From Minisyncoccota bacterium (GTDB lineage Bacteria > Patescibacteriota > Microgenomatia > UBA1400 > PJMF01): a stretch of DNA of 33,894 nucleotides. Positions 2,676 to 33,894 of this stretch are shown here, piece by piece. Location of the stretch: the NCBI GenBank assembly GCA_029881675.1, contig JAOUMD010000012.1, forward strand, positions 1 to 33,894. The letters are read 5' to 3'. The position numbers were made by a program, and so were the translations under genes. Numbering within the stretch: position 1 is the stretch's first letter; each line of letters begins with the position of its first letter. Under the pieces are notes generated by a model. It had not been told where the DNA came from. It made no database searches and was given only the letters and a program-made list of their open reading frames with translations.

Positions 2676-4358
2676 TTAAAGCTCCTCACCCTCAACACCA
2701 GTTTCTAGTAGGACTTCTTCTGACTTGGCTAGGATCTTTCTCCATGGACCAAAATTATTTAATAAATCTACGACAATTTTTAATTCTCTTATCTCAAATA
2801 GTGCTGCAAAGTAAAGATAGACAACCATACCAATTGTTCCTGTTGTAATAGATAAGGCAATTAATTCTATTGTTTTTGCAGTATTAAAAACAAGTTCATC
2901 CAAGACTCTAAAAGGAAGATAAAGTGATACGGCCATAAAGAAAGCTGAAACTAACATTTTTATTTGCGGGACCCACAAAGCCTTTTGTAATAAGCCACCT
3001 ACTTTTCTATGTAAGAAAATTAATAAGAAAACCAATTCAGCAAAGGCTGTAATAATAGTAGCAAATGCTAAGCCCATTACTCCCCAGCCAGTGTGAAATA
3101 CAAAATAGTAACTCAAACAAAAGTAGATGATCAAATCGATACTAGATATTAACAAAGGTGTCTTTGTGTCCTTAAGAGCATAAAATGCTCTATTTAATAA
3201 ATGTGATAAAGCTTGAGCTGTGATAGAAATAGCTAAAACTGCTACTAACTTACCCAATAGGACAGTTGAAGTCCAAGGAAAACTTCTAGTACCAAATACC
3301 AATCGAACTGCTGGAATTCTTAAAATTAACAATAAAACAGTGGCTGGAAATGTTAAAAAAGAAATTTGATTGAGAGATTGCAATACTAACCCAACAAACT
3401 TGCCCCTCTCACTTTCTCCTGATTTTTCTGAAAGAAATGGTAAGGAAGCTTGTCCGATAGGAACTCCAAATAATCTAATCGGAACAGTCATTAGTGTCAG
3501 TGCATAGAACATTGATAAATAACTAAGTGATCCTAATGAAGTAGTAAAGAAACCAAGAGCCAACTTTCTGACCTCACTAGCTCCAATAGCAAAGACTCTA
3601 GGTGGCATTATCTTGAAAAATTGTTTAATTCCAGGATATTTAAAATTCAATGAGAAACTATATTTAAAACCAAGCTTGTACACCAAAGGAATTTGAATAG
3701 CTAAATGTAAAAATGATCCTATTACTACACCAACTCCAGCAGAATAAATACCAAGTTGTGAAGAAAATAATAAAACTCCTAAAATAATTCCAAGATTATA
3801 AAAAATTGGAGAAAGTGCTGGGATAATAAAACGCTGAAAAGACTGCAATATACCAGTCATAAAATTGGAAATAGCAAAGAAAAACTGGGCTAATAACATC
3901 AGCCTTGTTAAATTAACCACTATATCTATTTGTTCTGGCTTTATCTCTGCTCCAGTTCTAAAAACTGTAATTTCTCTGGCAAATATAAAAACAATTACAC
4001 CTACAACAATAAAAGACAAAAGCAAAATATTCATCATGATAGAACTCATATGAAATGCTTTTTGATAACTTTGTTTCTTTGAGCTAGTAAAGATAGGAAT
4101 AAAAGCAGCAGAAAGTGCTCCGAGAATAATAAGCTGGAACATCATATCTGGAATTTGAAAAGCTAACCAGAATGCTTCCAAAGCAGACTCAGAATTTTCA
4201 ATAAAGAAATGATTTAAAATACGCTTAATTAAAAGACCGGCTACAGCAGATAATGAGCTTGCTGCGGTCATAATTGTGGCAGCAGATAGTATAGATGTCT
4301 GCTGTTTTTCTAACCACAATGTACTAGGGTTTAAAAATTTAGGAAGCTTAAAAGTCAT
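2676..4358 (-). CDS. murJ: Lipid II flippase MurJ (MviN family)
   Basis: Polytopic; SALSAAFIPIF..., SGILQS-like, PIGQASLPFLSE motifs. Start reassigned from 4412 to ATG at 4358 (MTFKLPKFLNPS), 6 nt after TATAAT. Confidence 0.9.
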   Translation of the reverse strand: MTFKLPKFLNPSTLWLEKQQTSILSAATIMTAASSLSAVAGLLIKRILNHFFIENSESALEAFWLAFQIPDMMFQLIILGALSAAFIPIFTSSKKQSYQKAFHMSSIMMNILLLSFIVVGVIVFIFAREITVFRTGAEIKPEQIDIVVNLTRLMLLAQFFFAISNFMTGILQSFQRFIIPALSPIFYNLGIILGVLLFSSQLGIYSAGVGVVIGSFLHLAIQIPLVYKLGFKYSFSLNFKYPGIKQFFKIMPPRVFAIGASEVRKLALGFFTTSLGSLSYLSMFYALTLMTVPIRLFGVPIGQASLPFLSEKSGESERGKFVGLVLQSLNQISFLTFPATVLLLILRIPAVRLVFGTRSFPWTSTVLLGKLVAVLAISITAQALSHLLNRAFYALKDTKTPLLISSIDLIIYFCLSYYFVFHTGWGVMGLAFATIITAFAELVFLLIFLHRKVGGLLQKALWVPQIKMLVSAFFMAVSLYLPFRVLDELVFNTAKTIELIALSITTGTIGMVVYLYFAALFEIRELKIVVDLLNNFGPWRKILAKSEEVLLETGVEGEEL

Positions 4359-4364
4359 ATTACA

Positions 4365-4370
4365 ATTATA
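4365..4370 (-). promoter_or_regulatory. Predicted -10 (TATAAT) of murJ, 6 nt before ATG
   Basis: Minus-strand TATAAT-TGTAAT-ATG. Confidence 0.55.
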
Positions 4371-4382
4371 TAGTCCAAGAGA

Positions 4383-4388
4383 TATAAT
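4383..4388 (+). promoter_or_regulatory. Predicted -10 (TATAAT) of the giant secreted protein gene, 7 nt before GTG
   Basis: TATAAT-ACGAAGA-GTG. Confidence 0.55.
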
Positions 4389-4395
4389 ACGAAGA

Positions 4396-7300
4396 GTGAA
4401 AAGGCTTAACAAACTGTTACTAGCTCTATTTGTGTTTACTGCTGGTCCTTTTTTATTTCCTCAATCAATCCAAGCAATCGAAGTAAACTGTTCCAATTCT
4501 GGGACAATCAATGTTGAAGAATATGTCGCCCCACGTTGTGGCGGTGGTGATTGCCCTGTTGTGGGTGCTTCATCTATTGGCGAAGGATTTGCCTATATTG
4601 GTAACGTAACTAACTATGTTGAATGGGTTAGTGATTCAAAATTCAAACAACACTCTAATGATGTTCATTTCCTTTATACAGTAGAAGGTAATGTCATTAA
4701 ATTTTTAAGAGACACAATCTGGGGAGGTGGCCCAGCTAATGGATTTTTTGCTTGTGATGGGACTAGCCAAGAAGCATTTTATCAAGTCTATGACGCAAAC
4801 AATAACTGGGGTCGTGGGATTCTGGCAACCTCAATGAGTTGTGGACAAATCTATGAGAGCTCAGGACATATTGAATCTTATGCAAAGGATCCCAGCATGG
4901 AAACAAATATGAACGAAGGCCCTTTTAACTCATGTAATGTCCAAGGTCAAACAGGAATTGTCACACCCGGTGCACAGCAACTTATTTTTGAAGGACCTGC
5001 TATTTGCAATTCTTTAAACCCAATAGATGTAATTATCACTACTAATTTAGGAGGGGCTGGAGCAGGTGAAGTCTATGTTTACTGTAAAGGTTATGGACTT
5101 TGTGCTTGGTATCAATCTATAGATTTTGATGTTGATTCTCCAGCAGATTGGGATGAGACTACCGATGTTTGTGCGCTTGATGCGAGCTCTTCTATTGATA
5201 GAGATCCATATTTTGTCGAACCAATAAATGGTATGTATGACTTTGAACTTAATAACTATAAAGATCCAGGGAATTTAATCTTTGATAAAGTCTATGAAGA
5301 TTTAGTAGCTCAAGGGTATCAGGCATATTGTAGTATTCCAGATCTTAAATATATTGCTTCATCTAACACTAATGAAATAATGCTTGAGGATATTATCGGA
5401 ATTGCACCAAACGATGTAGGAGGTCCTGCAGAATCAAAACCTGGGAATAGAGTAACTGTCTCAATTGAAGACTATAAACAATTCTTTAGTTACATTGACT
5501 CACAAACACCACTTTGGAGAAAAGATGGTATTTTTGTTTTAAAAGATAAAGACTCATTAGAAAATTTCTGGAGTAATAAAAATACTACACCAAGAGAGGG
5601 ACTTAGAAATGCTGAGTTTTCACCAGCCTTTAGTCTTCTTACCCCAAAAGAACAATGTGTAGAAAAAAAGAAAATCCTTAAAGCAGTTGATAAAAAATGT
5701 AGAACCTTAGAAAACTCAGAGACATGTGCTCTGAATATTTCTTATTCTCCTGGTAGCCAAGCGTACTGGGATTTACATAGATCAATAGAACAAAATGGTT
5801 TTGAATGTGATTTAATGAACCAGCCTGATGAGAATTTAAGTCCTTCCCAAGTATCCATAAAACATAACTTACTTGATATGCCTTTTGTGTTACCCACTTC
5901 GTATCGCTATGCTTTTGTTGTCTATTCTGCTGAACTAAGAGAACCTCGTATTGTAGATTCTCAAAGTGCTATCTGGAGTGAAACCACAAGAAAACCTGGT
6001 TTTGACTTCTTAAGATACACTGATAAAGAAGGTAAAACATTAACTGAGCCTAATGCGAAACCTAGAAATGAAGTAAGAATCCTAGCTTTCTTAGTTCCTG
6101 ATTTTACTACTAATCAAGATGATTTTGAATTTACATACACTCCTCCACCAGAAATAAAATATCCTACTCTAAGTTCAACTGGAGGAACGCCTAGACTACA
6201 TCAGCCAACTTATGCAAAACCTGATCTTAATTTCAAAGATTCAGTAAAAATAGCCAGAAATGCAATCCAAAAACTTGAAGTTCAAGATGCTTATCTTGCA
6301 AAGTGGCGAGCAATAAAAGAAGGGAACCCTATCCTTGATCCATTTAAAAATGATGGAGTGACTTGGTTTACTCCTTTTGAAGGAGAGCCTGATCCCGATA
6401 GTGAAGAAGATAAATTAATTGAATGCCTATATTGGCATGGCCAACCCACTATTGGTGCATATAGTTGTGTGGCTCCAATGGAAAAAGCTCTCACTACTTT
6501 TGTAAATAGAAGAATTGAAAATCCTGCTGATTGCAATGAAGAAATTATTAAGTGGGAAGAAAATAGAACAATATATTCAGATGCAGGAATCACTAGAGCT
6601 GATGCTGGACTTTTCCATCTTTATAATGGATCTGCTGGAGACTTTCTATCTGGCAATGTTCACATCCCAGAAGGAGACACTTCAGTCCATATGCTAGATA
6701 ACGGGCTATATCCAAATGATGTAGCAAATATCATAGATAACACTGATGATGATAGTGCTGAGCCAATTACTGACTTGAAGAAAAAAGTTTTCTCATTTAG
6801 ATTCCTTTCACATTATTCATTCTCATCATTCTATGACGGAAACGACCCTCTTTATGGTGGTGAAGAACATCAAAAAAGCCAAGATACACAAGCAGTAATT
6901 CACGGATATCTTGTATATCCAGTAGGATATGAGTTAAAAGGAGCTGAAGAAACTTTCCTTCGTGAATTCTTAACTACAGAGCAAATTAAACAATTTGAAG
7001 ATGAATGGGACTCAGATATTGCAGGTGATGATGTTAGAGATCCTTGGTTCAAAATGGAAAATGTTGATATTGAACTATCTGCAAATACAGCCACACATCC
7101 AGAAAAATTCTTATATAAAACAGATAGTGATTGTAGAAGTTCATATAATTCATATGTAGCTAGCGATCCTGACCCACTACAAAGCTATGATGACTTTAAA
7201 TTATCCTCATGTAGAAAATCTCCTGAGGCCTCTATCAAAATATTTTCCAAAAAAGATCTAGAACCAAGAATATTAGGTGCTAAATTTGGTCTAGTTACAA

Positions 7301-8175
7301 TTAAGTTTCAGCAGGCTTTAAGAGAAATTGGTTCTCCAACATGGGACTACATCACCTCATGTCTAGAGAGTGATACTCCTACTGAAGATTTCTTAACTGG
7401 AAGATGTAGTGGAGTTGTTGAAAGAGATGGTATGCAAGATAATGAAGAAGATCCTGATACAGATTATATGAATACAGAATTAATTGTAGATGTAACTACT
7501 GACTGTAGTGGTGTTCGTAGATTTGATGGAAGTGTTGGAGCATATGAGCTTCAATTATCAGAATTTTCTTGTACTATTGACGACTCTATTACAGGATCAT
7601 CAGATAATGCTGTAGAGTATATTGATGATATCCATGGTATAGATGAGTGGACAAATGGTTCTGACAGAATTACTTGTGGTAAAGATTTATATGAAATGGT
7701 AGGTTGTACATTCCAAAGTGGAGGAAGACCAACCCTCATTTCTCATGAAGTAGATAGTTCTGGAAAATTTGAAGAAGGCACTGGGACAACAGCTTGTGAG
7801 TATGTACAGGATAGAGCAGCAGAGCAGAATGTCAGCCCAAGGCTTGCTCTTTCTATCTGGATTGAAGAAACTGGAGCAAGTGCATATACTTCAGAATCAG
7901 GAGGACCAGACTTTGGAGTTTTAAGTCAAAAAACATCTCGCCAAAGCGGAACTATTGAAGATCAGCTAAGACTATTCTTAGGAACAATTAATAGTAATCG
8001 TAACATTGCCTATCCAAGATTCTTACTACAATATTCAGGAGAACTACTATATGCTAGTGATGATCCAGACCAAAACTGGAGAGATTGGCAAGTAGGAGAT
8101 CCTGTCTTATTTTGTAGAAACAGAGCATTTGCCGGAAGACTAAAACATACTTACGAACAACTGGGAAGATTTTAA
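4396..8175 (+). CDS. Giant Cys-rich secreted protein with C-terminal lysozyme/SLT-like domain
   Basis: Signal peptide from GTG at 4396 (VKRLNKLLLALFVFTAGPFLFPQSIQAIEVNC); many Cys; C-term 'ACEYVQDRAAEQNVSPRLALSIWIEETGASAYTSESGGPDFGVLSQ' resembles a lytic transglycosylase core. ORF-track start at 4276 overlaps murJ and lies upstream of the promoter. Confidence 0.75.
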   Translation: MKRLNKLLLALFVFTAGPFLFPQSIQAIEVNCSNSGTINVEEYVAPRCGGGDCPVVGASSIGEGFAYIGNVTNYVEWVSDSKFKQHSNDVHFLYTVEGNVIKFLRDTIWGGGPANGFFACDGTSQEAFYQVYDANNNWGRGILATSMSCGQIYESSGHIESYAKDPSMETNMNEGPFNSCNVQGQTGIVTPGAQQLIFEGPAICNSLNPIDVIITTNLGGAGAGEVYVYCKGYGLCAWYQSIDFDVDSPADWDETTDVCALDASSSIDRDPYFVEPINGMYDFELNNYKDPGNLIFDKVYEDLVAQGYQAYCSIPDLKYIASSNTNEIMLEDIIGIAPNDVGGPAESKPGNRVTVSIEDYKQFFSYIDSQTPLWRKDGIFVLKDKDSLENFWSNKNTTPREGLRNAEFSPAFSLLTPKEQCVEKKKILKAVDKKCRTLENSETCALNISYSPGSQAYWDLHRSIEQNGFECDLMNQPDENLSPSQVSIKHNLLDMPFVLPTSYRYAFVVYSAELREPRIVDSQSAIWSETTRKPGFDFLRYTDKEGKTLTEPNAKPRNEVRILAFLVPDFTTNQDDFEFTYTPPPEIKYPTLSSTGGTPRLHQPTYAKPDLNFKDSVKIARNAIQKLEVQDAYLAKWRAIKEGNPILDPFKNDGVTWFTPFEGEPDPDSEEDKLIECLYWHGQPTIGAYSCVAPMEKALTTFVNRRIENPADCNEEIIKWEENRTIYSDAGITRADAGLFHLYNGSAGDFLSGNVHIPEGDTSVHMLDNGLYPNDVANIIDNTDDDSAEPITDLKKKVFSFRFLSHYSFSSFYDGNDPLYGGEEHQKSQDTQAVIHGYLVYPVGYELKGAEETFLREFLTTEQIKQFEDEWDSDIAGDDVRDPWFKMENVDIELSANTATHPEKFLYKTDSDCRSSYNSYVASDPDPLQSYDDFKLSSCRKSPEASIKIFSKKDLEPRILGAKFGLVTIKFQQALREIGSPTWDYITSCLESDTPTEDFLTGRCSGVVERDGMQDNEEDPDTDYMNTELIVDVTTDCSGVRRFDGSVGAYELQLSEFSCTIDDSITGSSDNAVEYIDDIHGIDEWTNGSDRITCGKDLYEMVGCTFQSGGRPTLISHEVDSSGKFEEGTGTTACEYVQDRAAEQNVSPRLALSIWIEETGASAYTSESGGPDFGVLSQKTSRQSGTIEDQLRLFLGTINSNRNIAYPRFLLQYSGELLYASDDPDQNWRDWQVGDPVLFCRNRAFAGRLKHTYEQLGRF

Positions 8176-18488: not shown

Positions 18489-18584
18489 ATAAAAAAATGA
18501 TAGCATTTGATCTACTATGAAACAACTGTTGTAAATGTAGAATTTGATGAAAAATAGATATAAAACTGAGCAAAAATATTAATA

Positions 18585-19820: not shown

Positions 19821-22284
19821 CAGGCAGCAACTTTACGATAGATTTCTCATAAATAGTTTTTCCTTGTTCATCAATTGCTCGATTACAATCTGCACAATAA
19901 TTCTCAAAAACAGGGTCAGAATAAAACTCATGTTCTTCTAAAACCAAGCCTTCAGCTTGCTCCCCATAGGCAGGTGGTAAACCTGTCTCTGGTCTTATCC
20001 AAACATTTTGTTTTATAACTTTAGACTCAGAAGGTCTTGAATATTCCCAGAATATATCTGTATATCTGACAGCACAGCCATTGCCATTTTTGGATGGAAA
20101 ACCACTAGCACAAACACCAGCAGACTTAACATCAGCTGGTTTTTCTTGCCAGATAGGCTCCTGATCTTTTAAGACATAACTCATAATGTCATTCCAAATT
20201 GGGGCAGCTCCAGTTACACCAGAAACTAGGTATTGATTCATAGAAGTATTATCATTGTTACCAACCCAAGTAATAGTCAAAAACTCTGGGGTAAAACCAA
20301 CCGTCCAGTTATCTTTGACATTATTTGTTGTCCCTGTTTTTGCACTAACAACCTGTCCTGGGATAACAAGTTGTGATCTTGAACCAAAAGCAGCTGTACG
20401 AGCATTATTATCCTGCATAATATGAGCAGTCATATATGCTGGGGCCTTATCCATAACTCTAACTAGATCATCTTTCTTTTCTTCTCCGTCATATTCTGTT
20501 AGATACTTTAAATCTTCTTTTCTTTTCTCTACATCAACTTTTTTAATCACTTCACCTCTAAAGTCAGTAATTTCTAAAATAGGTAGTAAAGGAACTTTGA
20601 CTCCTCCGTTAGCAAGAACTCCAAATGTTTGAGCCATATCTATCATTCTCACTTCACCACCACCTAAAGTTAGTGAAAGACCATATTGAGAAGGATCTAG
20701 CCATGTTGTAATTCCCATTTTTGTGGCTTGTGCCATAAAGTCTTCTACTCCAATAGCTTTAAGGCCTTTGACAGCAGGAATGTTTAAAGAGTTACCAAGA
20801 GAATTTCTGACGCTAATCGGACCTTTAAAAGAACCATCATAGTTTTTAGGACAATATTCTGGTTGTCCTGGCAATTCAAAACAGGTTGGGATATCAAGAA
20901 GGATAGTGCCTGGATTTAATAATTTATTTTGAAAAGCAGTCGCATACATGATTGGCTTTATTGAGGAACCAGGCTGTCTATGAGCAAGTGTCACATTTAC
21001 CTGTCCATCATTGTCTGAATCAAAGTAATTAGTAGAACCAATCATGCTTAAAATCTCACCAGTATTTGGCTTTACAACCATTGCCGCTCCGTTACCCACT
21101 TTATAGTTACCTAATGTTTCAATCTCAGCTGACAATGAAGCTTGAGCTGCTTCATGTAATTCTAAATCAAGAGATGTTAAAACTCGGAGTCCTCCTTTTT
21201 CTACCATTTCAACTCCATACTCTTCATATAAAAGATCACGAACATAAAAAACAAAGTGTGGAGCTTTAATATCTGTCTTTGATAAAGCAAATTCTAGTTG
21301 TACAGAGGCTGCATCAGCTGCCTCTAATTCAGAGATATATCCATCATCAAGCATTCTATTTAATACTTCTTGTTGTCTTTGTTTTGATTGATTACCATCA
21401 GAAGAAAAAGGAGAATATCTGCTTGGTGCTTGAGGTAAACCGACCAGTAATGAAGCTTCAGCCAAAGTTAAATCCTTAGCATGCTTATCAAAATACTGGT
21501 TGGCAGCTGACTCAATTCCAACAGCAGTCCCTCCATATGAAATATAATTAAGATACATCTCCAGAATTTCTTCTTTGGTGTATAGAATCTCTGTCATAAC
21601 AGCCAAGATAGCTTCTTTAATTTTTCTTTTGAATGTTTTTTCTCTAGTCAATAGAGCATTTTTTACTAGTTGTTGTGTAATTGTTGATCCACCCTCTGAA
21701 ATTCCCCCACCTTTTATATTAGCTACTACAGCTCTAGAGATACCGATCAAATCAAAACCAAAGTGGCTATAAAAACGCCTATCCTCAATTGCAATTGTCG
21801 CTTCAGCGATATGAGGAGGTAAATCACCAAGTGAGATAGGGATTCTATTCTCATCAGCAAAGATTTCATACAATAAGATGCCATTTCTATCAAAGATCTG
21901 AGTACTAACATTATAGTTACCATTTGAGGTAAGATTTTTTGGAGAAGGTAAGTCCTTCATTAAATATACAAGAATACCAATTCCTAAAAGTATTAATAAA
22001 ATTATTGCCAAGACAAGTTTCTTTAACTTCCCGCCAACCTTCTCATTGCTAAAAAATGGTAAATTAACTTTATATTTAGCCTTTGACTTCTTGTTTGAAA
22101 CTTTTCCCCAATATTTTGTCTTGTTTGATGGATTTTTAAAGAATTTATCAAAATTTAGTTTAAATAAAGGAGTCTTGGTTCTTTTTACAGAACTGACACT
22201 ACCTTTTAAGGCATCTCCGACCTTTTTCTTGGTAGGAAGAGTCTTTCTGGATCTGACTGGTCGTTTTTTTCTTTTAGACACCAC
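19780..22284 (-). CDS. Class A penicillin-binding protein (PBP1A-like), second copy
   Basis: EDRRFYSHFGFD, GGSTITQQLVKN, GSSIKP, SLN, KTGT; C-term CxxC. GTG at 22284 favoured over ATG at 22290 because TATACT (22296-22291) directly abuts that ATG. Confidence 0.9.
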   Translation of the reverse strand: MVSKRKKRPVRSRKTLPTKKKVGDALKGSVSSVKRTKTPLFKLNFDKFFKNPSNKTKYWGKVSNKKSKAKYKVNLPFFSNEKVGGKLKKLVLAIILLILLGIGILVYLMKDLPSPKNLTSNGNYNVSTQIFDRNGILLYEIFADENRIPISLGDLPPHIAEATIAIEDRRFYSHFGFDLIGISRAVVANIKGGGISEGGSTITQQLVKNALLTREKTFKRKIKEAILAVMTEILYTKEEILEMYLNYISYGGTAVGIESAANQYFDKHAKDLTLAEASLLVGLPQAPSRYSPFSSDGNQSKQRQQEVLNRMLDDGYISELEAADAASVQLEFALSKTDIKAPHFVFYVRDLLYEEYGVEMVEKGGLRVLTSLDLELHEAAQASLSAEIETLGNYKVGNGAAMVVKPNTGEILSMIGSTNYFDSDNDGQVNVTLAHRQPGSSIKPIMYATAFQNKLLNPGTILLDIPTCFELPGQPEYCPKNYDGSFKGPISVRNSLGNSLNIPAVKGLKAIGVEDFMAQATKMGITTWLDPSQYGLSLTLGGGEVRMIDMAQTFGVLANGGVKVPLLPILEITDFRGEVIKKVDVEKRKEDLKYLTEYDGEEKKDDLVRVMDKAPAYMTAHIMQDNNARTAAFGSRSQLVIPGQVVSAKTGTTNNVKDNWTVGFTPEFLTITWVGNNDNTSMNQYLVSGVTGAAPIWNDIMSYVLKDQEPIWQEKPADVKSAGVCASGFPSKNGNGCAVRYTDIFWEYSRPSESKVIKQNVWIRPETGLPPAYGEQAEGLVLEEHEFYSDPVFENYCADCNRAIDEQGKTIYEKSIVKLLPDERDDNGFEQITP

Positions 22285-22370
22285 GTGCATAGTATACTAG
22301 TAAAAAAAGTCACTTAGTAGAGGTACAAAAAATGCGGTATGATATCAGAATAGAATAAAAGGAGCCAAAC

Positions 22371-23686: not shown

Positions 23687-24232
23687 ATGAAACCGTTAAA
23701 AATTACATTCTCTATTTTTGGACTTTTTGTAGCCAGTGCCGTTCTAGCGGTATCTTTAGCTAGTAGTGTTCCATCAGCATATTCTGCCGGAGATAAATTT
23801 AAATCAAATGATAAACAGTTCTATTTAAACGGAGAAATATTACCAGACCATACTCTTTATCCAGTAGTGATGGCTGCAGACAAACTTAAGCTAGAAATGG
23901 CAAATCCTCAAGAAAAGATAAATATCTATACTACCTATGCCAATCTTAGACTCTCGGCAGTTGAATCACTCTTAGAAAAAGATAATCCTCAATTAGCACT
24001 GACAACATTAACCAAATCACAAAAATACCTCCTCAGAGCAGCCTCAGAAACAATTAACCAAGATTCCTCACAAGCAACAAAGCTCCACGTACTAAAGACA
24101 CTTCTTTACCACACAAATAAACATCAACAACTAAAAGAACAATTCTCAGCAGAAGAAAAAAATATTATTGATCAACTTGATATGGAATGCCTTGTTTTTG
24201 TTGATAGCCTAAAAACCAGCCTTATCTTATAA
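23687..24232 (+). CDS. DUF5667-like secreted protein
   Basis: Signal peptide; 'LPDHTLYPVVMAADKLKLEMANPQEKINIYTTYANLRLSAVESLLEK' resembles DUF5667 (LPDsPLYxxK...). Confidence 0.65.
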   Translation: MKPLKITFSIFGLFVASAVLAVSLASSVPSAYSAGDKFKSNDKQFYLNGEILPDHTLYPVVMAADKLKLEMANPQEKINIYTTYANLRLSAVESLLEKDNPQLALTTLTKSQKYLLRAASETINQDSSQATKLHVLKTLLYHTNKHQQLKEQFSAEEKNIIDQLDMECLVFVDSLKTSLIL

Positions 24233-24239: not shown

Positions 24240-24590
24240 ATGTCTTTTAATTTAATTCCTAAAGTATATGCTGCCTGTGAAGATGCAAATGGTCTTGACC
24301 TTGGTTGTAAATTCACTCTTGGAATAAGTGGTGATCCAGTCAAAGACATTTATCAAACCCCCGCAGACCTCGTAAACTTAATTGTCAGTAACCTAATGGT
24401 TCTTGGTGGAATCATTCTTTTTTTCATGGTTATTTTAGCTGGATTTAAATTCCTACAAGATACAACCAAAGGAAAAGAAGAAGCAATGAAGATTATGAAA
24501 TCAGCTTTGATTGGCTTTATTCTCATGTTCTCTGCTTACTGGATAGTTCAAATTGTAAAGGCTATTACTGGGACAAACATTGTATTATAA
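24240..24590 (+). CDS. T4SS pilin-like protein 1 (divergent)
   Basis: Two TM helices flanking a short loop (FLQDTTKGKEEAMKIMKSALIGFILMFSAYWIVQIV); TATAAT 6 nt before ATG. Confidence 0.75.
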   Translation: MSFNLIPKVYAACEDANGLDLGCKFTLGISGDPVKDIYQTPADLVNLIVSNLMVLGGIILFFMVILAGFKFLQDTTKGKEEAMKIMKSALIGFILMFSAYWIVQIVKAITGTNIVL

Positions 24591-24610
24591 ATAAGTGATA
24601 TAATAATTTT

Positions 24611-24988
24611 ATGGTAAGAAAACTAATAGCAGACGCATCAGCTACTTTTGGGACAATTGATGCTCCTGCAGGAGTTGTTGACTATAATATAGCCGCTGGA
24701 GGTGGAGATGCTATTGGTATCTTAGTTTTTATAACTAGGTTTATCCAACTTATCTTTGTTATAGCTGGGATCTGGGTTATGTATAACGTAATCTCAGCTG
24801 GTTTTATTTATCTTGGAGCAGAAGGTGATTCAAAAGCTCATTCAAAAGTAAAAGATCAAATTACTATGAGTGTGATTGGTCTTATTATTATTGTCGCTTC
24901 ATATGGAATTGCTTCTATAATCGGACTAATATTCTTTGGCAGAGCTGACTTTATTCTTAATCCAATTATTCAAGGACCAACTCCATGA
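24611..24988 (+). CDS. T4SS pilin-like protein 2
   Basis: Two TMs; 'AGFIYLGAEGDSKAHSKVKDQITMSVIGLIIIVASYGIASIIGLI'; TATAAT 24599-24604, 6 nt before ATG. Confidence 0.78.
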   Translation: MVRKLIADASATFGTIDAPAGVVDYNIAAGGGDAIGILVFITRFIQLIFVIAGIWVMYNVISAGFIYLGAEGDSKAHSKVKDQITMSVIGLIIIVASYGIASIIGLIFFGRADFILNPIIQGPTP

Positions 24989-25377
24989 TGATATTTAATT
25001 TACTTGCTGCCGCAAATTTTGGACCAACTGGACTTCAGCCACAAGGTGGCACTACTGAAGGAATAGCAAATTTTGATACAGCTACTCCATTAACATCCTT
25101 AGAATTATGGATATCAAGATTACTTGGTATGATTACTACTATAGGAGCAATTGTTTTTATCTTTATGTTTTTCTATGGAGCATTCAGATGGCTCAGTGGT
25201 GGAGATGACACTGCAAAGATCGGGAAAGCCAGAGACCAAATGGTTCAAGGTGTCATTGGTATGATTATAATGGTAGCTGGCTATGCAATTATTGGGCTGA
25301 TTGGAGAAATGATTGGTATTGATATTCTAAACCCAGCACAACAAATTAGAGACGTTACAGGTATTACTGGAAATTAA
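24985..25377 (+). CDS. T4SS pilin-like protein 3
   Basis: 'GAFRWLSGGDDTAKIGKARDQMVQGVIGMIIMVAGYAIIGLI'; ATG overlaps previous TGA. Confidence 0.82.
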   Translation: MMIFNLLAAANFGPTGLQPQGGTTEGIANFDTATPLTSLELWISRLLGMITTIGAIVFIFMFFYGAFRWLSGGDDTAKIGKARDQMVQGVIGMIIMVAGYAIIGLIGEMIGIDILNPAQQIRDVTGITGN

Positions 25378-25380
25378 ACT

Positions 25381-25749
25381 ATGTTATTAAATTTTATTGT
25401 CACCAAAGCACAAGCTGCAGTTACAAATCCAGCCATTGGAGAACTCGGTGATGAAGCAGCTGCTGTTTCAGCAAAAGAAGGCACATTATTCACTAGTTAT
25501 TTTTTAAGAATTTGGAATGGAGTTATAACTATTGGTGCTTTAATGGTTATTGTTTATTTTCTATGGGGCTCAATTGGTTGGATTACGGCTGGTGGAGACT
25601 CTGCAAAGATTCAAAAATCCAGAGATAGAATGGTGCAAGCTGTAATTGGCTTAATCCTTCTTGTGGGTTCATTTACCTTACTTGGATTCATCAGTTCTAC
25701 ATTCTTTGGAACAGACTTTAATATTCTACAACTAAACTTTGGAGTGTAA
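25381..25749 (+). CDS. T4SS pilin-like protein 4
   Basis: 'GSIGWITAGGDSAKIQKSRDRMVQAVIGLILLVGSFTLLGFI'. Confidence 0.82.
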   Translation: MLLNFIVTKAQAAVTNPAIGELGDEAAAVSAKEGTLFTSYFLRIWNGVITIGALMVIVYFLWGSIGWITAGGDSAKIQKSRDRMVQAVIGLILLVGSFTLLGFISSTFFGTDFNILQLNFGV

Positions 25750-25752
25750 CCT

Positions 25753-26187
25753 ATGTTAATGACACTTTACGCAGCAACAGTAGACTTCACCACAGCCACT
25801 AGTGATACATTAGCTGGTTCTGAAAAAACTTTCCCTGAATGGCTTGCAATGCTTATTAACTCAGTAATGATTGTAGCTGCTCTACTTCTGCTTATTTATA
25901 TGCTGTGGGGTGGTATCGCTTGGCTTACAGCTGCCGGAGATTCAAGTAAAATTTCAGCAGCTAGAGATAAAATGACTCAAGCAGTTATTGGAATAGTTGT
26001 CTTATCTGCCAGTATTGCTATTTTCATGCTTGTCCAAACTATCCTTGGAATAGAAGTCTTGAATTTCACTGGTGGAACACCTACTGGAACATCATATTCT
26101 TCAACAACAGGATCCACGGTTACAACTTCACCTAGAACAAGAAGGAGTGGAACAAGTGGATTTACCTTAAGAGGGACTGATGAATAA
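25753..26187 (+). CDS. T4SS pilin-like protein 5 with Thr/Ser-rich C-tail
   Basis: 'GGIAWLTAAGDSSKISAARDKMTQAVIGIVVLSASIAIFMLVQ'; tail GGTPTGTSYSSTTGSTVTTSPRTRRSGTSG. Confidence 0.82.
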   Translation: MLMTLYAATVDFTTATSDTLAGSEKTFPEWLAMLINSVMIVAALLLLIYMLWGGIAWLTAAGDSSKISAARDKMTQAVIGIVVLSASIAIFMLVQTILGIEVLNFTGGTPTGTSYSSTTGSTVTTSPRTRRSGTSGFTLRGTDE

Positions 26188-26228
26188 TATAAATTAATTA
26201 AAGATTGTCCATATTTGTAAAGATCTGG

Positions 26229-26234
26229 TACAAT
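26229..26234 (+). promoter_or_regulatory. Predicted -10 TACAAT for pilin 6 (with TTGTCC at 26205-26210, 18-nt spacer)
   Basis: Leader of roughly 40 nt ending in AGGAG (26271-26275). Confidence 0.5.
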
Positions 26235-26279
26235 ATTAAATAAGAAAAGCTTTTTAGCTATATATAAATAAGGAGAAAT

Positions 26280-26660
26280 ATGAAGAAAAGACTTCAAAAG
26301 CTAGCAGTCGCCACAAGTAGTGCAGTTGCTGCTTTCCCATTATTAGCAACTGGAGTAAGCGCTGAAGCAATCGGTGCTGAATTAGGAACTGGGTTCTTCA
26401 CTGACATTGGTCAACTATTTAACACAGTACTTAGATTTGTTTTAATCATTTCTGCACTGTTAGTGTTCGTGTACTTAATTTGGGGTGGTATTGAATGGGT
26501 TACATCAGGTGGTGATAAAGGAAAGACTGAATCAGCACGTAACAAAATTACAGCTGCTGTCATTGGTTTAGTCATCGTTGCTGCTTCATATGCAATCTTC
26601 ACTCTAATCATCAAGGCAGTATTAGGAGTTGATGATATCAATACTCTTATTAACCCTTAA
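26280..26660 (+). CDS. T4SS pilin-like protein 6, candidate major pilin
   Basis: Canonical signal peptide MKKRLQKLAVATSSAVAAFPLLATGVSAEA; 'GGIEWVTSGGDKGKTESARNKITAAVIGLVIVAASYAIFTLIIK'; own promoter, SD and terminator. Confidence 0.87.
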   Translation: MKKRLQKLAVATSSAVAAFPLLATGVSAEAIGAELGTGFFTDIGQLFNTVLRFVLIISALLVFVYLIWGGIEWVTSGGDKGKTESARNKITAAVIGLVIVAASYAIFTLIIKAVLGVDDINTLINP

Positions 26661-26686
26661 AAGTTAATATAAAATAGAAATTAATA

Positions 26687-26718
26687 AAAAAAGCTCGGTC
26701 TGTTGATCGAGCTTTTTT
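26687..26718 (+). terminator. Rho-independent terminator after pilin 6
   Basis: AAAAAAGCTCGGTC-TGTT-GATCGAGCTTTTTT: GC-containing stem (one G-T wobble), 4-nt loop, T-tract. Confidence 0.9.
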
Positions 26719-26743
26719 AGTTCTATTAAGTATATTAACAAAA

Positions 26744-26755
26744 CTACTCGAGTAG
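26744..26755. repeat. Perfect 12-bp palindrome CTACTCGAGTAG at the -35 region of pilin 7
   Basis: CTACTC/GAGTAG; TATAAT of pilin 7 lies at 26773-26778. Confidence 0.7.
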
Positions 26756-26785
26756 GAGATTGCTAAATAGGGTATAATTACAGCC

Positions 26786-27571
26786 ATGAAAGTTATCAAT
26801 TCAAAAAACACTTGGTATTTAATTTTTGGAATATTATTTATCCTAGTTATTACCTTGGTTGTCTTTAACTTAATCTTCAAAAGAACTGAAAATAGATTGA
26901 AAAGTACTTCCCCAGATCAAAGAGAAACTTTGATTACTCAAAAGGATGAAAGTAAATCTGGGATAACCTATATAAAAGCTTCACCCAAGCCAACTGCAAA
27001 ACCTTCAGCAAAACCATTGTTTGCCCTATTTAATACTTCACCAAAACCGACTCCTAGCCCTTCCCCTACTCCAAATATTAAAGAACTTAAAGTTGAGCAA
27101 GATAGTGTCACTGCTTCTGTAACAATTGATCAAAAACCTACTAAAGGAGGTATGGTTGCTTCTAAGTCTGGAGACTTAGAATTAGTTGATGAAGATGGAG
27201 TTGTATATCTTTCTACAAAAAATCAAGATGGGAGTGAAGACTCTAGTGTAAAGAAAAACAGAATTGGTCTTTCAGAAATTATCAGTCCTCCACCAGGCTA
27301 TGCACAAGACCTTGGAGCATTTATTAATAAACTAGTCAGACTATCATTAGTATTTGCATCACTGTTAGTCTTTGTCCAACTGGTACTTGGAGGTATTCAA
27401 TGGCTCACTTCAGGTGGGGATAAAGGTAAAGTAGAAGAAGCAAGAAATAAAATTACTGCAGCGGTTGTTGGACTAATAATTGTAGCCTCATCATATGCAG
27501 TATTTACACTGGTTCTACAATCATTAGGTATTGGAGATATTAATGCACTTATAGAAAGTGCTTTCCCTTAA
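26786..27571 (+). CDS. Membrane-anchored pilin fusion: N-terminal TM + Pro-rich linker + T4SS pilin domain
   Basis: N-term TM WYLIFGILFILVITLVVFNLIF; linker SPKPTAKPSAKP...SPKPTPSPSPTP; C-term 'GGIQWLTSGGDKGKVEEARNKITAAVVGLIIVASSYAVFTLVLQ' near-identical to pilin 6. Confidence 0.82.
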   Translation: MKVINSKNTWYLIFGILFILVITLVVFNLIFKRTENRLKSTSPDQRETLITQKDESKSGITYIKASPKPTAKPSAKPLFALFNTSPKPTPSPSPTPNIKELKVEQDSVTASVTIDQKPTKGGMVASKSGDLELVDEDGVVYLSTKNQDGSEDSSVKKNRIGLSEIISPPPGYAQDLGAFINKLVRLSLVFASLLVFVQLVLGGIQWLTSGGDKGKVEEARNKITAAVVGLIIVASSYAVFTLVLQSLGIGDINALIESAFP

Positions 27572-27622
27572 TATTTATATTAGAACAATAGTTCAACTAA
27601 TTTGTTATAATTTAGAATAGAC

Positions 27623-28069
27623 ATGATAAAAAAATTCAAAAAATTTTCCCTAATCCTATTTACCTTTATAACTTTATTCCATAGTTTCAGCTATAACGTT
27701 CAGGCCCAAGAAGAGTGGGACTCTAGTACTCTTAATTGTACTGGAAGTGGTACAGGTATTGCGGATGCGAGTGATGTTGCAACCATCCAAGGTTTTGCCT
27801 GCTTAATTGGAAATGTCTTATCTGTTGCAATCACTTTAATAGGAATGTTAGCTCTTGTTATGTTTGTTATTGCTTCCTTTAGATACTTAACTTCTGGAGG
27901 TAACTCAAAGTCTACAGAACAAGCGAAAGGGACAATTACATATGCTGTAGCAGGGCTTGTTGTCGCCGTCTCAGCCTTTATCATTTTAAATTTAATCTCA
28001 AACTTTACCGGTATAGATGTCTCAACCTTTGTCATTCCAGATGCAGGTACATCTGTAGAGCCAATATAA
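27623..28069 (+). CDS. T4SS pilin-like protein 8
   Basis: Signal peptide; 'FACLIGNVLSVAITLIGMLALVMFVIASFRYLTSGGNSKSTEQAKGTITYAVAGLVVAVSAFIILNLI'. Confidence 0.8.
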   Translation: MIKKFKKFSLILFTFITLFHSFSYNVQAQEEWDSSTLNCTGSGTGIADASDVATIQGFACLIGNVLSVAITLIGMLALVMFVIASFRYLTSGGNSKSTEQAKGTITYAVAGLVVAVSAFIILNLISNFTGIDVSTFVIPDAGTSVEPI

Positions 28070-28112
28070 AATAGCAATTAAAAGAAAGTCTGATTTAGGT
28101 TACAATATAGAT

Positions 28113-29711
28113 ATGAAATTAAGGGTATTATTCCTATCCGCTATTCTTTCCTTTGGACTATTTTTTTCTTCGCTTTCAGTTAACCAAGCTAATGCAAGTT
28201 TTTTTGATGATCTCTTTACTACTATTAGAGAATGGGAAACAGCCCTTACTCCAGAATCAGGTGAAGAAGTTGTAGAACCTAATATTATTGATACAACTGG
28301 AACTCAATTCAAATCAAATCAAGTAAACCTCTTACATGCCGTTAGTAAAGGTGAGGAGAGTGCAATTAATGGAGCTGGTGATGCTCTTAGCTCTCTTTTC
28401 AAACATTCTCCTGCAAGTGGAGAAACCTATGTTGCAGATCTCTTACAAAATATGAAGATTGGTCCAGCCGAACCTGCCTATGCACAAGTTGGAGGACTTG
28501 GATTTGCTGCTTTAGAGCCTGTTTTATATGCATGGAAAGCATTCAGAAATATTGCCTACCTATTCTTTATTATCATCACTTTGATAATTGGTTTTATGAT
28601 TATGATGAGACAAAAGATTGGAAGCCAAGCTGCCGTTACAGCACAACAAGCTATCCCTCAAATTGTTATTGCTTTAATAACAGTTACCTTCTCTTATGCC
28701 ATAGCTGGCTTCATGATTGATATGATGTATGTTTTTATGTTCCTTCTGATTGGATTATTTCCTGATCAAACTGGAACTAATCCTATATCAAAAAACTTAA
28801 TACAAATTGGTTATGAAATGTTTACAAATGGAATTGGGACTGCATTTGATGCAGTACAAACTTTTGTCGCAGAACAAGTAGATAGTGAAGTAGTTGGTTT
28901 TATGACTGGATTAACTTTTTCTATTATCATTGCTATTGCCTATCTATTTGCAGTAATTCAGTTATTCTTTGAGTTACTTAAGACTTATATTGCCATTGTT
29001 GTCAGTATAGTGTTATCTCCTCTACTTCTCATGATGGGTGCCCTTCCTGGTAGAAGTGATGTTTTTGGAGGGTGGGTTAAGAGTCTTGTCGGTAATTTGA
29101 TTGCATATCCAGTTGTATTACTCTTAGTAATATTACAAAAGCTATTAACAGAAGGTTCTGCTGCACAGGGTGGATTCTTACCTCCATTCTTAATGGCTAG
29201 AGGTGAAAGTGGTGGTATTATTGCATTGATGGGCTTATCTATTATGTTAATTGCTAAAGACTTAGTAGTACAAGCAAAGAAATCTGTTAATCCAAAAGGT
29301 GGCGGTATCTTTGAACAATTTGGTACTGCACTTTCATCTGCTGTATCTAAGGGATGGAAAGGTGGAGAGCTTATTCCTGGTGTTGGTTTGACTGATACAA
29401 ATAAGATACCTGGTGTTGGTAAGTATATGGGTAGTGGTAAGAGTATTCTGCAGAGTGGGCTTACTGGACTTAGTGCTGGAGCTGGTGGTCTTGTTGGGGC
29501 TGGTAGGGGTATTAAAAGAATGGCAATTGATTCAGATACCAGAAAACAAGCTGGGCAAAGTATTATCAGAGGTGTTAGAGGTGGAGGTAGATTTACAGCT
29601 GATGTTATCGGATCTGAAGCATTTAAAACAAATCGAAGCGAAAGACAAAAAACTTCTGTACTTACAGATAGATCAAAAATAAAGACACTTCAAAGTAAAG
29701 AAGGTAAATAA
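28113..29711 (+). CDS. TrbL/VirB6-like polytopic membrane protein
   Basis: Signal peptide, several TMs, Gly-rich cytoplasmic-type C-tail; follows the pilin array; TACAAT 6 nt before ATG. Confidence 0.72.
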   Translation: MKLRVLFLSAILSFGLFFSSLSVNQANASFFDDLFTTIREWETALTPESGEEVVEPNIIDTTGTQFKSNQVNLLHAVSKGEESAINGAGDALSSLFKHSPASGETYVADLLQNMKIGPAEPAYAQVGGLGFAALEPVLYAWKAFRNIAYLFFIIITLIIGFMIMMRQKIGSQAAVTAQQAIPQIVIALITVTFSYAIAGFMIDMMYVFMFLLIGLFPDQTGTNPISKNLIQIGYEMFTNGIGTAFDAVQTFVAEQVDSEVVGFMTGLTFSIIIAIAYLFAVIQLFFELLKTYIAIVVSIVLSPLLLMMGALPGRSDVFGGWVKSLVGNLIAYPVVLLLVILQKLLTEGSAAQGGFLPPFLMARGESGGIIALMGLSIMLIAKDLVVQAKKSVNPKGGGIFEQFGTALSSAVSKGWKGGELIPGVGLTDTNKIPGVGKYMGSGKSILQSGLTGLSAGAGGLVGAGRGIKRMAIDSDTRKQAGQSIIRGVRGGGRFTADVIGSEAFKTNRSERQKTSVLTDRSKIKTLQSKEGK

Positions 29712-29855: not shown

Positions 29856-32800
29856 TTAATCGCCTTTGGCTTGTTTATCTTCAGCTTCTTTGACTGCCTT
29901 ACTTTCTGTATTCAATAAACCTGCATTTGTTAACACCGCGAAGTTTGGATCAGCAAAACCAACTTTGTTATAGCGTTGAAGTGCTTGGTAATATTTAGTT
30001 CTATTAATCTCAGTAAACCAATCTCTCTGCTCAATTCCTCCAGAATATATTGTTCCTTTTGCTCTACCAATTGGAGTATTAGGATTATGACCTTTTTTTA
30101 ATCCTAACCAGAAATTATTTAGTGCTTCGCCAATAGATTGAGCAGGCGATTCAATTGGTGCAACAGTCAAAAGAGCATCTCTAAGAGAGCCTCTTTTGTG
30201 GCTACCATCAGGTTGAGGAATAATAAATAATTCTTTACTACCAACTCCAATTTGACCAGAATCATATATATATGTTTCTATAGCATCAATTAAATTTCTT
30301 ATGACTTTATCCTTTCCAATCAAACCATCAAACCATCCTTCTTCAGGCCCATCAAAAACATCATCGTGCTTTTCACGATATGTATAAATCATTGCCTTAA
30401 TTCTCATATCTAATAGTTCATAAAAATATACCCAATCAACCATATTAGCTGATGTCTTTAGAGGTGAAGTCGCTGAAAATAACTTGGTCAGATCTTCATG
30501 AATAAGCAGGACATCTCCTACAACATCTCCAGTTAATTTTGGAACAGGAGCATTAAATTTATCATAAGTCTCTTTATATGCATCGTGAACTGATAATTGA
30601 GTTTTATGAACTTGGTCACCTCTTGATGCAGCAATCCCTGCTTCAGCCATATCCTCATCACTTAAGTCTAATGCATCATATGGGTTATCTTTTTCATCTA
30701 AATTTGCTCCATACTCTGCCAAGAAATGTCTTGGTGGAGCAATTAAATGTTGTAAAAATTGACCATTTGTTGGATTTGTTGGTTTTCTTTGAAGATGAGT
30801 TGCTGCTTGATCATCAGTTCTTTCAGCTACAAAATGTCCATAAAGCCTTGCTTCTGACTTATTAGGAATTAATATTTTCTTACCTGATGCATCTATCACT
30901 TCACTTCCAGAATATGAAACAAAACTTGATCCAAGTAAATCTCTCTTCAGTCTTGAGATATTAACTGAAATTAATATTTTTCTAAATCTTAAAAATTTTC
31001 CTAATTTTGATGCATGTTCTTTTAGTTGAGCCTCAGTTAATTCTCTAATTGCTTGTAATCCTCTAATATCTTTATTTCCATCAATATTTGTTATCTCTTC
31101 CTCAAATTCTGCTTGAGATTTTATTTTAAATAGTTTTCGAAGATCGGGATCAGTAATCATTAAGCTCATTAATCCTGTGGAAATAGCTCCACTTACAAAG
31201 AAACTATTTGGGACATCTCCTCCAGCTACAATATATGGTATTTCTAGGATATTCTCCTTACATTTATTTAGTTCTTTTGCTAGTGGGAAGCATTCAGCCA
31301 TCCTGCCCATATTAGGTGCTGAATAAGGTGAGTTCCCCACAGGCCAATATTTTGATGTAAATATTTGTTCTCTTGTTGCAGACAAACCATTTAAATCTAC
31401 TGCTATAGCTATTGCTTGATCTAACTCTTTTCCTGTAATAACTTTTTTCTTATCCAAAGTTATCTCTGTTTTAACTCCTGGTACTTCTTTCCTATCCTCG
31501 CCATATGTATATACAACTTCACCATTAAGGTGTGTTCTCCTGACTCCTGGGATACATGCGAAATCTCTCAATAACCTGGCTTTCATAGCTTTGGTTTTCT
31601 TACCACCCTCATCACTCATCCACTTGGCTCTACCAAATGAGAAATATCCTCTTTCAGTAACATCTTGACCTAGAGTATCTTCAAACTTTTTATATAATGA
31701 AGAATCTAGTTCTTCAGGAGTTCTTCCATGTTTTTTTGCAAGATAATCTTTATTTCCACTAATCTCTAAAACATTTCCTTCTGAATCTTTAACAACATAC
31801 ATTGCACCATACTTATCTTCTAAAATTGCTTTAGGGTGTTTTCCAGCTAATTCAGTTCTATCATAACTTTCCCCCAAAAATTTACCATTATGATCTCTAG
31901 CAACCCATAGTGTTCCCCACTTATCTTCAACAGACATACCAGGATACTTTGACTCTAATAGATCTTTATCAGCTCCTTCTTCTAAAATTTTTCCGGATTC
32001 ATCTCTTACAACCCACATCCTTTTTTTTCCAATCATTATGGGATTGCCATCCTTATCAACCTTATCCTCATATTGTACAAATCCATCGTTCATTTCATCA
32101 TAATAAAGAGTCATTGCCTGATCTAGTGCTCTAATTACTCTGTAATGAGGATGTGAATGCTTTTCCCTATTTCTTGCCCCATCTCTATTTAGTCTAATAT
32201 TAGAACCTGTAAAATAGTCCACAATAAATCTTCCAAATTTGGGAATTGTCTCTTTAAAAGCAGCTTCAAAATTAATAGATACAATAGAGGACTCTCCATT
32301 CATATGTGCTTGATCTGCTAGAGCCAAACGGTTATAAATTAATTGATAGTATTCTCCAAGGACATCACCTTCTTTCTTTCCATGCATCACCCCTGCTTTA
32401 TCAACACTATATCCACCTACACTTGATTCTCCTAAAAAGGTCATTAACGAAGTAAATTTTCTACTCTCTAAAGTACCCTTAAAATATGCTCTTTCATCAA
32501 ACTTAGAAATTGCATCTTCCATCTCCAAAATAGTTCTTCTAACTACTTCATTAAAACCTTTTTTGTCTGTTGGATTAATATCCCAAATTCTTTTCCATTC
32601 AGCCGCATATTTATTCTTATCATCAGTATCAGGTTTCACAAATTCAAAACGAGAATCTAATTTCTTCTCTACTTCGTAGTTAACAATACTAGTTCTCTTT
32701 TTTGTTAACTCATAAACTTCGTTAACTAATTCTAGATACCTCTTAATTTTTTCTTTTGCTCTTACTGGCAAGTCAAATGTCTTATCTAAAATATCCAGTC

Positions 32801-33278
32801 TATATTGTTCATCAAATGTTTTACTTGCTCTATTTGAGATTACCTTAACATCATCTTGGTCTGTTATAGCTTGTTTCTGCTTGCCTTCCAAAAGATCTAA
32901 TAAATCTTTATAGCGATCTATATCTGCACTTTTGCTTGTAATATTAGATGATATTGCACTTTCTAATACATTAGCTAATGAAACTTTTGTTCTTAAAATA
33001 ACGCCATCTCTCATCACTTGATATCTCTTATTTGCCATATCATCTACAATACCAACGTCAGGTGGAATCTTTGATTTATCCCATGATACACCTACAATTA
33101 TTCCACTTTCTGCGATATCTCTAATTAAAACCGTTTCTAATTCAAGCCTTTTATCTTCTAACAAAAGCAAACTTTTTGAAACCGAAAATTGATCTGAAAG
33201 TTTTGTATCAACATCTTTAAAACGTTTTCCAAAGAGTTTATCCATCTCAGCTAGTGTTTGTGAAATCTCTTTAGACAT
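29856..33278 (-). CDS. Large (1140 aa) hypothetical protein with internal 36-aa repeats
   Basis: Long uninterrupted ORF; three tandem 36-aa repeats at aa 421-526; no family recognised. Start 7 nt after the stop of the upstream gene. Confidence 0.85.
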   Translation of the reverse strand: MSKEISQTLAEMDKLFGKRFKDVDTKLSDQFSVSKSLLLLEDKRLELETVLIRDIAESGIIVGVSWDKSKIPPDVGIVDDMANKRYQVMRDGVILRTKVSLANVLESAISSNITSKSADIDRYKDLLDLLEGKQKQAITDQDDVKVISNRASKTFDEQYRLDILDKTFDLPVRAKEKIKRYLELVNEVYELTKKRTSIVNYEVEKKLDSRFEFVKPDTDDKNKYAAEWKRIWDINPTDKKGFNEVVRRTILEMEDAISKFDERAYFKGTLESRKFTSLMTFLGESSVGGYSVDKAGVMHGKKEGDVLGEYYQLIYNRLALADQAHMNGESSIVSINFEAAFKETIPKFGRFIVDYFTGSNIRLNRDGARNREKHSHPHYRVIRALDQAMTLYYDEMNDGFVQYEDKVDKDGNPIMIGKKRMWVVRDESGKILEEGADKDLLESKYPGMSVEDKWGTLWVARDHNGKFLGESYDRTELAGKHPKAILEDKYGAMYVVKDSEGNVLEISGNKDYLAKKHGRTPEELDSSLYKKFEDTLGQDVTERGYFSFGRAKWMSDEGGKKTKAMKARLLRDFACIPGVRRTHLNGEVVYTYGEDRKEVPGVKTEITLDKKKVITGKELDQAIAIAVDLNGLSATREQIFTSKYWPVGNSPYSAPNMGRMAECFPLAKELNKCKENILEIPYIVAGGDVPNSFFVSGAISTGLMSLMITDPDLRKLFKIKSQAEFEEEITNIDGNKDIRGLQAIRELTEAQLKEHASKLGKFLRFRKILISVNISRLKRDLLGSSFVSYSGSEVIDASGKKILIPNKSEARLYGHFVAERTDDQAATHLQRKPTNPTNGQFLQHLIAPPRHFLAEYGANLDEKDNPYDALDLSDEDMAEAGIAASRGDQVHKTQLSVHDAYKETYDKFNAPVPKLTGDVVGDVLLIHEDLTKLFSATSPLKTSANMVDWVYFYELLDMRIKAMIYTYREKHDDVFDGPEEGWFDGLIGKDKVIRNLIDAIETYIYDSGQIGVGSKELFIIPQPDGSHKRGSLRDALLTVAPIESPAQSIGEALNNFWLGLKKGHNPNTPIGRAKGTIYSGGIEQRDWFTEINRTKYYQALQRYNKVGFADPNFAVLTNAGLLNTESKAVKEAEDKQAKGD

Positions 33279-33285
33279 ATATCTT

Positions 33286-33894
33286 TTAATTTCCCAATTT
33301 CATTACTGTTGATTGACCCTCAGATTCTCCAATTTTTGATCCAAGAATACTCTTCAGTTTTTTCTTAGTCTCATCTAACTTATCAGTAATAATTTGAACC
33401 ATTTCTGTAATCATGTATGCATATTCTCCATCTTTTGTTACCTCTGCTTCTTCAAGCTGCTCAGCTGTCATCTCAGATATTTCTTCATTTGTTAAGCCTG
33501 CATTATCACCAATCATATATTTAGGTAATTCTTTATCAACTTTTTCTCTTAATTTTTCATCTAATACAGCAAATGTTGCTGCATTTTCAATAACTACACC
33601 TAAATTAGCATCATCAATATCACTCAATCTTGGATCTTTAATTCTCTTTAACTTTGCTAAAATAGCCAAGTAATATATAACCTCTCTTTCAGTTCCTTCT
33701 TTTTCAAGTAATCTGGAAAAGTGCTCCCTATTGAAAATAATTTTATCTGCTGGTTCTTCCTCTACAACTGGTTCTTCCTCTACAACTGGTTCTTCCTCTA
33801 CAACTGGTTCTTCCTCTACAACTGGTTCTTCCTCTACAACTGGTTCTTCCTCTACAACTGGTTCTTCCTCTACAACTGGTTCTTCCTCTACAAC
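33286..33894 (-). CDS. Hypothetical protein with (VVEEEP)n tract, N-terminus beyond window edge
   Basis: Frame of the 33669 ORF is open upstream to 33894: (VVEEEP)x8-ADKIIFNREHFSRLLEKEGTEREVIYYLAILAKLKRIKDPRLSD... The TTG at 33669 is not the true start. Confidence 0.8.
   Translation of the reverse strand, partial: VVEEEPVVEEEPVVEEEPVVEEEPVVEEEPVVEEEPVVEEEPVVEEEPADKIIFNREHFSRLLEKEGTEREVIYYLAILAKLKRIKDPRLSDIDDANLGVVIENAATFAVLDEKLREKVDKELPKYMIGDNAGLTNEEISEMTAEQLEEAEVTKDGEYAYMITEMVQIITDKLDETKKKLKSILGSKIGESEGQSTVMKLGN
33751..33894 (-). repeat. Perfect tandem repeat, 18-bp unit x 8, reaching the window edge
   Basis: + strand TGGTTCTTCCTCTACAAC repeated eight times without mismatch (33751-33894); encodes VVEEEP on the minus strand. 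Confidence 0.97.

Follow-up and report, generated by a model that had tools for sequence, protein, structure and literature searches.

Are eight pilin-type genes standing in a row on one strand interchangeable copies of one another, or are they different parts of a single machine? The question is raised by a window of 33,894 bp, which is the entire contig C20 of a draft genome (1.08 Mb in 44 contigs, 94.6% complete) from a Patescibacteria member of Microgenomatia type. Here an original prediction, made from the letters of the sequence, had placed eight consecutive same-strand pilin genes of a type IV secretion system (T4SS), followed by a gene for a TrbL-like protein, and our analysis confirmed both place and strand: eight pilin open reading frames (ORFs) occupy 24240-28069, and a polytopic ORF follows at 28113-29711, all on the plus strand. 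Our best reading, drawn from sequence comparison, is that the array represents an old, vertically kept and ordered set of seven different pilins (slots S1 to S7) rather than interchangeable copies. We further consider it reasonably probable that this fixed, ordered set of non-interchangeable pilins comprises one abundant major pilin (S6) and several minor ones, and belongs to a chromosomal T4SS. The eight genes, with lengths in amino acids (aa) and scores against the Pfam family PF18895 (T4SS_pilin), are as follows.

24240..24590, plus strand: gene 1, slot S1; 116 aa; without the SGGD loop; 35.5 bits; reciprocal best hit to the first array gene of relatives.
24611..24988, plus strand: gene 2, slot S2; 125 aa; 26.8 bits; falls in the slot 2 group.
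24985..25377, plus strand: gene 3, slot S3; 130 aa; overlaps gene 2 by 4 bp; 28.5 bits; falls in the slot 3 group.
25381..25749, plus strand: gene 4, slot S4; 122 aa; 27.3 bits; falls in the slot 4 group.
25753..26187, plus strand: gene 5, slot S5; 144 aa; 27 bits; falls in the slot 5 group, the least constant slot.
26280..26660, plus strand: gene 6, slot S6; 126 aa; 37.6 bits; the most conserved slot and proposed major pilin.
26786..27571, plus strand: gene 7, S6 duplicate; 261 aa; 31.2 bits (residues 178-241); grouped with S6 by both tree and profile.
27623..28069, plus strand: gene 8, slot S7; 148 aa; 42.3 bits; falls in the slot 7 group.

Genes 1-6 and 8 thus make up S1-S7, while gene 7 is an S6 duplicate found in members of the window's family. 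These assignments come from comparison with relatives, of which 52 were surveyed and 40 supplied the array locus, the survey of the pilin family also taking in 143 genomes across the phylum and 14 control genomes; the names found among the relatives (Pacebacteria, Woesebacteria, Roizmanbacteria, Gottesmanbacteria, Collierbacteria) we take to denote the class Microgenomatia. In the same-genus relative (G001), each of the eight genes finds its reciprocal best hit at 48-71% identity, in identical order, and such hits carry the slot sequence across the families of the order. When the 70 pilins of ten arrays with exactly seven genes are placed on one tree, the slot labels change 7 times; at least 6 changes are unavoidable, and shuffled labels average 48. 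Held-out loci gave the same picture: with one profile per slot applied to the arrays in 80 named loci of another collection, and counting only loci without any training protein, 514 gene pairs fell in slot order, 10 were reversed and 16 were tied. Slot order extends to further orders of the class (G055, G162, G103), for example as S1-S2-S3-S4-S6-S7 in G055 and G162. The functional specialisation that the original prediction had proposed is supported by this gene tree across relatives and by the constancy of slot orthology and order throughout the class. Mean identity is 35-50% for orthologues between genomes and 26.6% for paralogues inside one genome, and because orthologues across families are closer than paralogues within a genome, we see no sign of gene conversion or concerted evolution.

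Within this ordered set, S6 stands apart. It is the most conserved slot, with 50% mean identity between genomes versus 35-41% for the others, and it is preceded by a gap of 38-136 bp, compared to medians of about 5-10 bp before S2-S5, the genes S1-S5 running head to tail with gaps of roughly 4-10 bp or overlaps. Scanning the 110 bp upstream of each slot gene at a criterion of at least 10 of 12 matches, we found a sigma70-like promoter before S6 in 61% of 57 loci; dinucleotide shuffles gave 3% and the remaining slots 0-10%. Intrinsic terminators were found behind S6 in 39% of loci and behind any other slot in 0%. Inside S1-S5, neither promoters nor terminators rose above background. The window carries the following signals around S6.

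26205..26234, plus strand: promoter-like site, TTGTCC, 18 nt, TG-TACAAT (extended -10), 9 of 12 matches.
26270..26275, plus strand: ribosome binding site AAGGAG, S6 having the strongest Shine-Dalgarno sequence among all slots.
26687..26718, plus strand: intrinsic terminator directly after S6, a 14-pair hairpin with a T tract.

The corresponding promoter-like site of the same-genus relative has TTGTCA and reaches 10 of 12 matches. Since the window region holds 19 promoter-like sites where 29 are expected, that is, no excess, the case for an S6 promoter rests on the cross-locus comparison. At the level of sequence signals, S6 is the sole transcriptionally insulated slot within the arrays of the class, and conservation, gap, promoter, terminator and Shine-Dalgarno sequence together suggest that it would be separately and strongly expressed.

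Turning to what these proteins are, the profile search bore out their identity as T4SS pilins, all eight ORFs passing the curated PF18895 cut-off (26.8-42.3 bits versus 26.6). The array family is not a chance match, since PF18895 is near-universal among the relatives (51 of 52) and the phylum genomes (139 of 143) and rare in the controls (1 of 14). S6 and S7 also match NCBIfam NF045849 (Mbov_0395 family), a pilin-like protein of Mycoplasma integrative and conjugative elements (3.7e-7 and 2.6e-5), though both below the family cut-off (29.7 and 23.8 versus 40 bits), and S6 has weak similarity to TrbC/VirB2 and CagC. The eight pilins share low identity: genes 6 and 7, which had been described as near-identical and are indeed the most alike, agree at 59% over 88 aa; gene 7 carries an additional N-terminal transmembrane segment and a Pro/Ser/Thr-rich linker. 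An additional marginal match of gene 5 to fumarate reductase C is probably compositional. The AlphaFold model of S6 has two long helices (residues 40-75 and 80-115), mostly with a predicted local distance difference test (pLDDT) score above 90, and a TSGGDKGK loop; its best match to a conjugative pilus of solved structure, Aeropyrum 8dfu, is weak (rank 9, E 1.5, probability 0.80), and the pilin and VirB6-like profiles, searched by sequence against solved structures, gave no match. One could suppose that these small proteins of two helices make up a mixed ring within the membrane or wall of the cell, without any extracellular filament, as S1 is without the canonical loop, S6 lacks a significant fold match to solved pili, and monoderm MPF-FATA systems are described as having no pilins (PMC12102498). 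We regard this as unlikely given the PF18895 membership, the TrbC/VirB2 and CagC similarity of S6, weak as it is, and the pilin-like NCBIfam matches.

The remaining T4SS genes are divided between the window and other contigs, beginning with the gene that directly follows the array.

28113..29711, plus strand: VirB6/TrbL-like polytopic protein; 532 aa; homologues in 43 of the 52 relatives.

As the protein itself has no Pfam or NCBIfam match, we term it VirB6-like and do not place it in a Pfam family; PF04610 (TrbL) is matched by 2 of 28 homologues (best 5.2e-6). Its AlphaFold model, built on a 63-sequence alignment, has a mean pLDDT of 74, rising to about 90 or higher in much of the membrane core, and its top eight matches in the PDB are all chains of the R388 stalk complex (TrwI/VirB6; probability 0.96-1.00), after which probability drops sharply. 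The modelled protein exceeds R388 TrwI/VirB6 in length: it has an additional N-terminal region, and its C-terminal tail is predicted at low confidence. VirB6 has been reported as scarce in Microgenomatia, with extreme divergence proposed as the cause (PMC12102498), and the modelled fold makes the 532-aa protein a good candidate for it. PF19590 (TrbL_3), tried as a VirB6 probe, matched nowhere, controls included, and was uninformative. The predicted TrbL/VirB6-like channel protein is upheld by the fold match and by the set of VirB4, TrsD and PrgI genes in the same genome. That no secretion ATPase is visible in the window, as the original prediction had remarked, is true simply because the window is one complete contig; in the genome, the search of other contigs recovered a single VirB4 on contig C38 with TrsD-like and PrgI-like genes, a set that fits an MPF-FATA-like T4SS of Patescibacteria. 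This VirB4 matches NCBIfam NF045971 (CD1110-family equivalog) above cut-off at 380 bits; the TrsD-like partner is a weak match below cut-off (2.3e-4), and PrgI falls just under its own (26.1 versus 27 bits). Genes adjoining the C38 VirB4 region are presumably dnaA and dnaN, named from their sequences.

VirB4 occurs in 49 of the 52 relatives; in 19 it shares contig and strand with the VirB6-like gene, which it follows at a distance of about 8-22 kb, so that C38 plausibly continues C20. The end of the window (33720-33894, minus strand) cuts an ORF within a VVEEEP repeat, and this may be why the assembly did not run on from C20 into C38, its likely neighbour. Contig C34 has a VirD4-like fragment at its edge, and a PF03432 relaxase was found in a control and not in this genome (94.6% complete), the search being confined to that relaxase class. 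Next to the PrgI and VirB4 genes of C38 (L012:11952-18270, minus strand) are proteins of 1512 aa, with glycine-rich hydrophobic stretches and an HEFGH motif, and 589 aa, to neither of which Pfam gave a function. In two relatives (G049:C4:42500-47000 and G050:C23:14000-18500), an in-frame intein-like insert ending HN-S is found at the VirB4 Walker A motif (SGAGK), and a 24,242-aa "open frame" at VirB4 of a third (G028) was discarded, at least its last 12 kb being a masked N run.

A different arrangement would have each pilin build a filament of its own, serving one particular stage or task, while sharing VirB4 and VirB6; old, specialised paralogues would be equally expected under it, and S6 does have separate transcription signals. 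We consider such alternative homopolymers improbable: the tight gaps and overlaps of S1-S5, with no internal promoters or terminators above background, indicate that these five are probably made together and not as alternatives, and the genome has only one VirB4. Very unlikely, finally, is antigenic or host-range variation, in which the bacterium would swap or recombine the copies, or express them differentially, as alternative variants of its surface, for although paralogue identity is low (about 25% in PMC12102498, 26.6% here) and copy number differs between lineages, each copy is orthologous to the same-place copy in other families with order kept, and paralogues less alike than orthologues imply no concerted evolution; the sequence comparison that disfavours it runs from a same-genus relative to other families and orders of the class.

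Several observations weigh against a fixed set of pilins with S6 as its major subunit. The slot profiles fail in other Patescibacteria classes (39 pairs in order versus 27 reversed), and in those classes no single insulated pilin stands out. Within the class the set varies in size, certain lineages lacking S5 and others having S6 in duplicate. As for the S6 signals, the loci compared are related to one another, and most of the DNA before S2-S5 is coding sequence, which in itself makes promoter matches fewer. On the structural side, no fold match of the pilin hairpin reaches significance, and E-values for the VirB6-like fold match range from 0.0013 to 0.22, the best just above 0.001.

Around the array and elsewhere in the genome are further genes that may belong to the same system. 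Many relatives possess an orthologous pair of pilin-type genes, A and B, within the array locus or upstream of the array. In this genome, contig C30 carries A and B (431 and 237-270 aa) and contig C19 a further two A-type genes (296 and 443 aa), and these proteins score 143-156 bits with the A or B profiles versus at most 82 for any S slot. The A type is usually a fusion of a large, cysteine-bearing N-terminal ectodomain to the pilin domain, as on C30 and C19, and is a candidate adhesin or tip subunit. Pilin-domain proteins of the A and B slots outside the array are seen at L010:7719-9985 and L009:8182-10204, the A types having large cysteine-rich ectodomains. Between S7 and the VirB6-like gene, relatives carry homologues of a large protein that is displaced in this genome.

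4276..8175, plus strand: large protein, 1299 aa.

One relative's homologue has a C-terminal SLT_3 lysozyme-like match, making the family a VirB1-like candidate; Pfam and PDB searches found no lysozyme domain in the window's own protein. Convergent to the VirB6-like gene (29856-33278, minus strand) is a 1140-aa protein without evident signal peptide, and most relatives have a minus-strand protein of 850-1300 aa in the same place. It has no significant BLAST similarity to its same-genus counterpart, the pilins there being 50-69% identical, and we interpret it as a fast-evolving gene beside the T4SS, possibly a substrate or effector. On the other side, a DUF5667 gene (23687-24232) stops 7 bp before the first pilin, an adjacency repeated in the same-genus relative, and is probably in one operon with the pilins. 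Farther upstream, two penicillin-binding-protein-like genes (15990-18506 and 19780-22290, minus strand) stand either side of a glycosyl hydrolase 18-like gene, all named from sequence only.

Multi-pilin arrays are less rare than the original prediction implied: 441 arrays of 2-11 pilin genes have been described in Patescibacteria, most abundantly in Microgenomatia and Saccharimonadia, and were suggested by analogy to Bartonella and Anaplasma to give broader host versatility (Quinonero-Coronel et al. 2025, PMC12102498). The array studied here resembles those in Pfam family, in tandem arrangement of 2-11 genes and in a T4SS without relaxase, but it departs from that reading in that its genes are orthologous from genome to genome, keep a fixed order and include one insulated slot, with a VirB6-like protein adjoining. 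Southlakia epibionticum is reported to have a six-pilin T4SS array essential for survival, for which a pilus-like conduit was speculated (PMC12857230). In that locus, too, several VirB2-like pilins of similar structure and divergent sequence accompany VirB6- and VirB4-like genes. Southlakia belongs to Saccharimonadia, and the slot profiles of the window's class assign no pilins outside that class. Bartonella Trw shares multiple VirB2 paralogues in a T4SS, also has multiple VirB5 copies, and has been proposed to make antigenically variable pili (PMC12857230), unlike the stable slot orthology without sign of variation seen here. The T4SS of one Patescibacteria member has been described as the first shown to be essential for a bacterium's survival, its role being given as unknown (PMC12857230, PMC11665869).

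Returning to the ordered set with one major pilin, we propose that seven VirB2-like pilins, S1-S7, would be joined in the window's family by the S6 duplicate encoded by gene 7. S1-S5 would probably be co-translated as minor subunits, and S6, with its own promoter, ribosome site and terminator, would probably be the abundant major pilin. The VirB6-like protein would serve as the membrane platform for pilin assembly, driven by the C38-encoded VirB4 with its TrsD- and PrgI-like partners. The pilins may co-assemble into one heteromeric filament or channel with S6 as its most abundant subunit, and the T4SS may serve host-cell contact. More tentatively, as something we hold slightly short of even, this would be a conjugation-class (VirB2-type) pilus or channel obligately made of at least seven different pilins in conserved order, with a separately dosed major subunit and the A/B pair as possible tip or adhesin.

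We know of no T4SS pilus of a fixed multi-pilin set that has been characterised, and in a limited search of the literature we found neither the slot orthology nor the insulated S6 reported. Pilin arrays of this kind were thus already known, and what appears new is the fixed order and the separately controlled slot. In place of the published suggestion of host versatility or something akin to immune evasion, class-wide slot orthology favours a machine of several parts that has a single major subunit, a model that predicts S6 abundance, non-redundancy of the pilins and their co-assembly.

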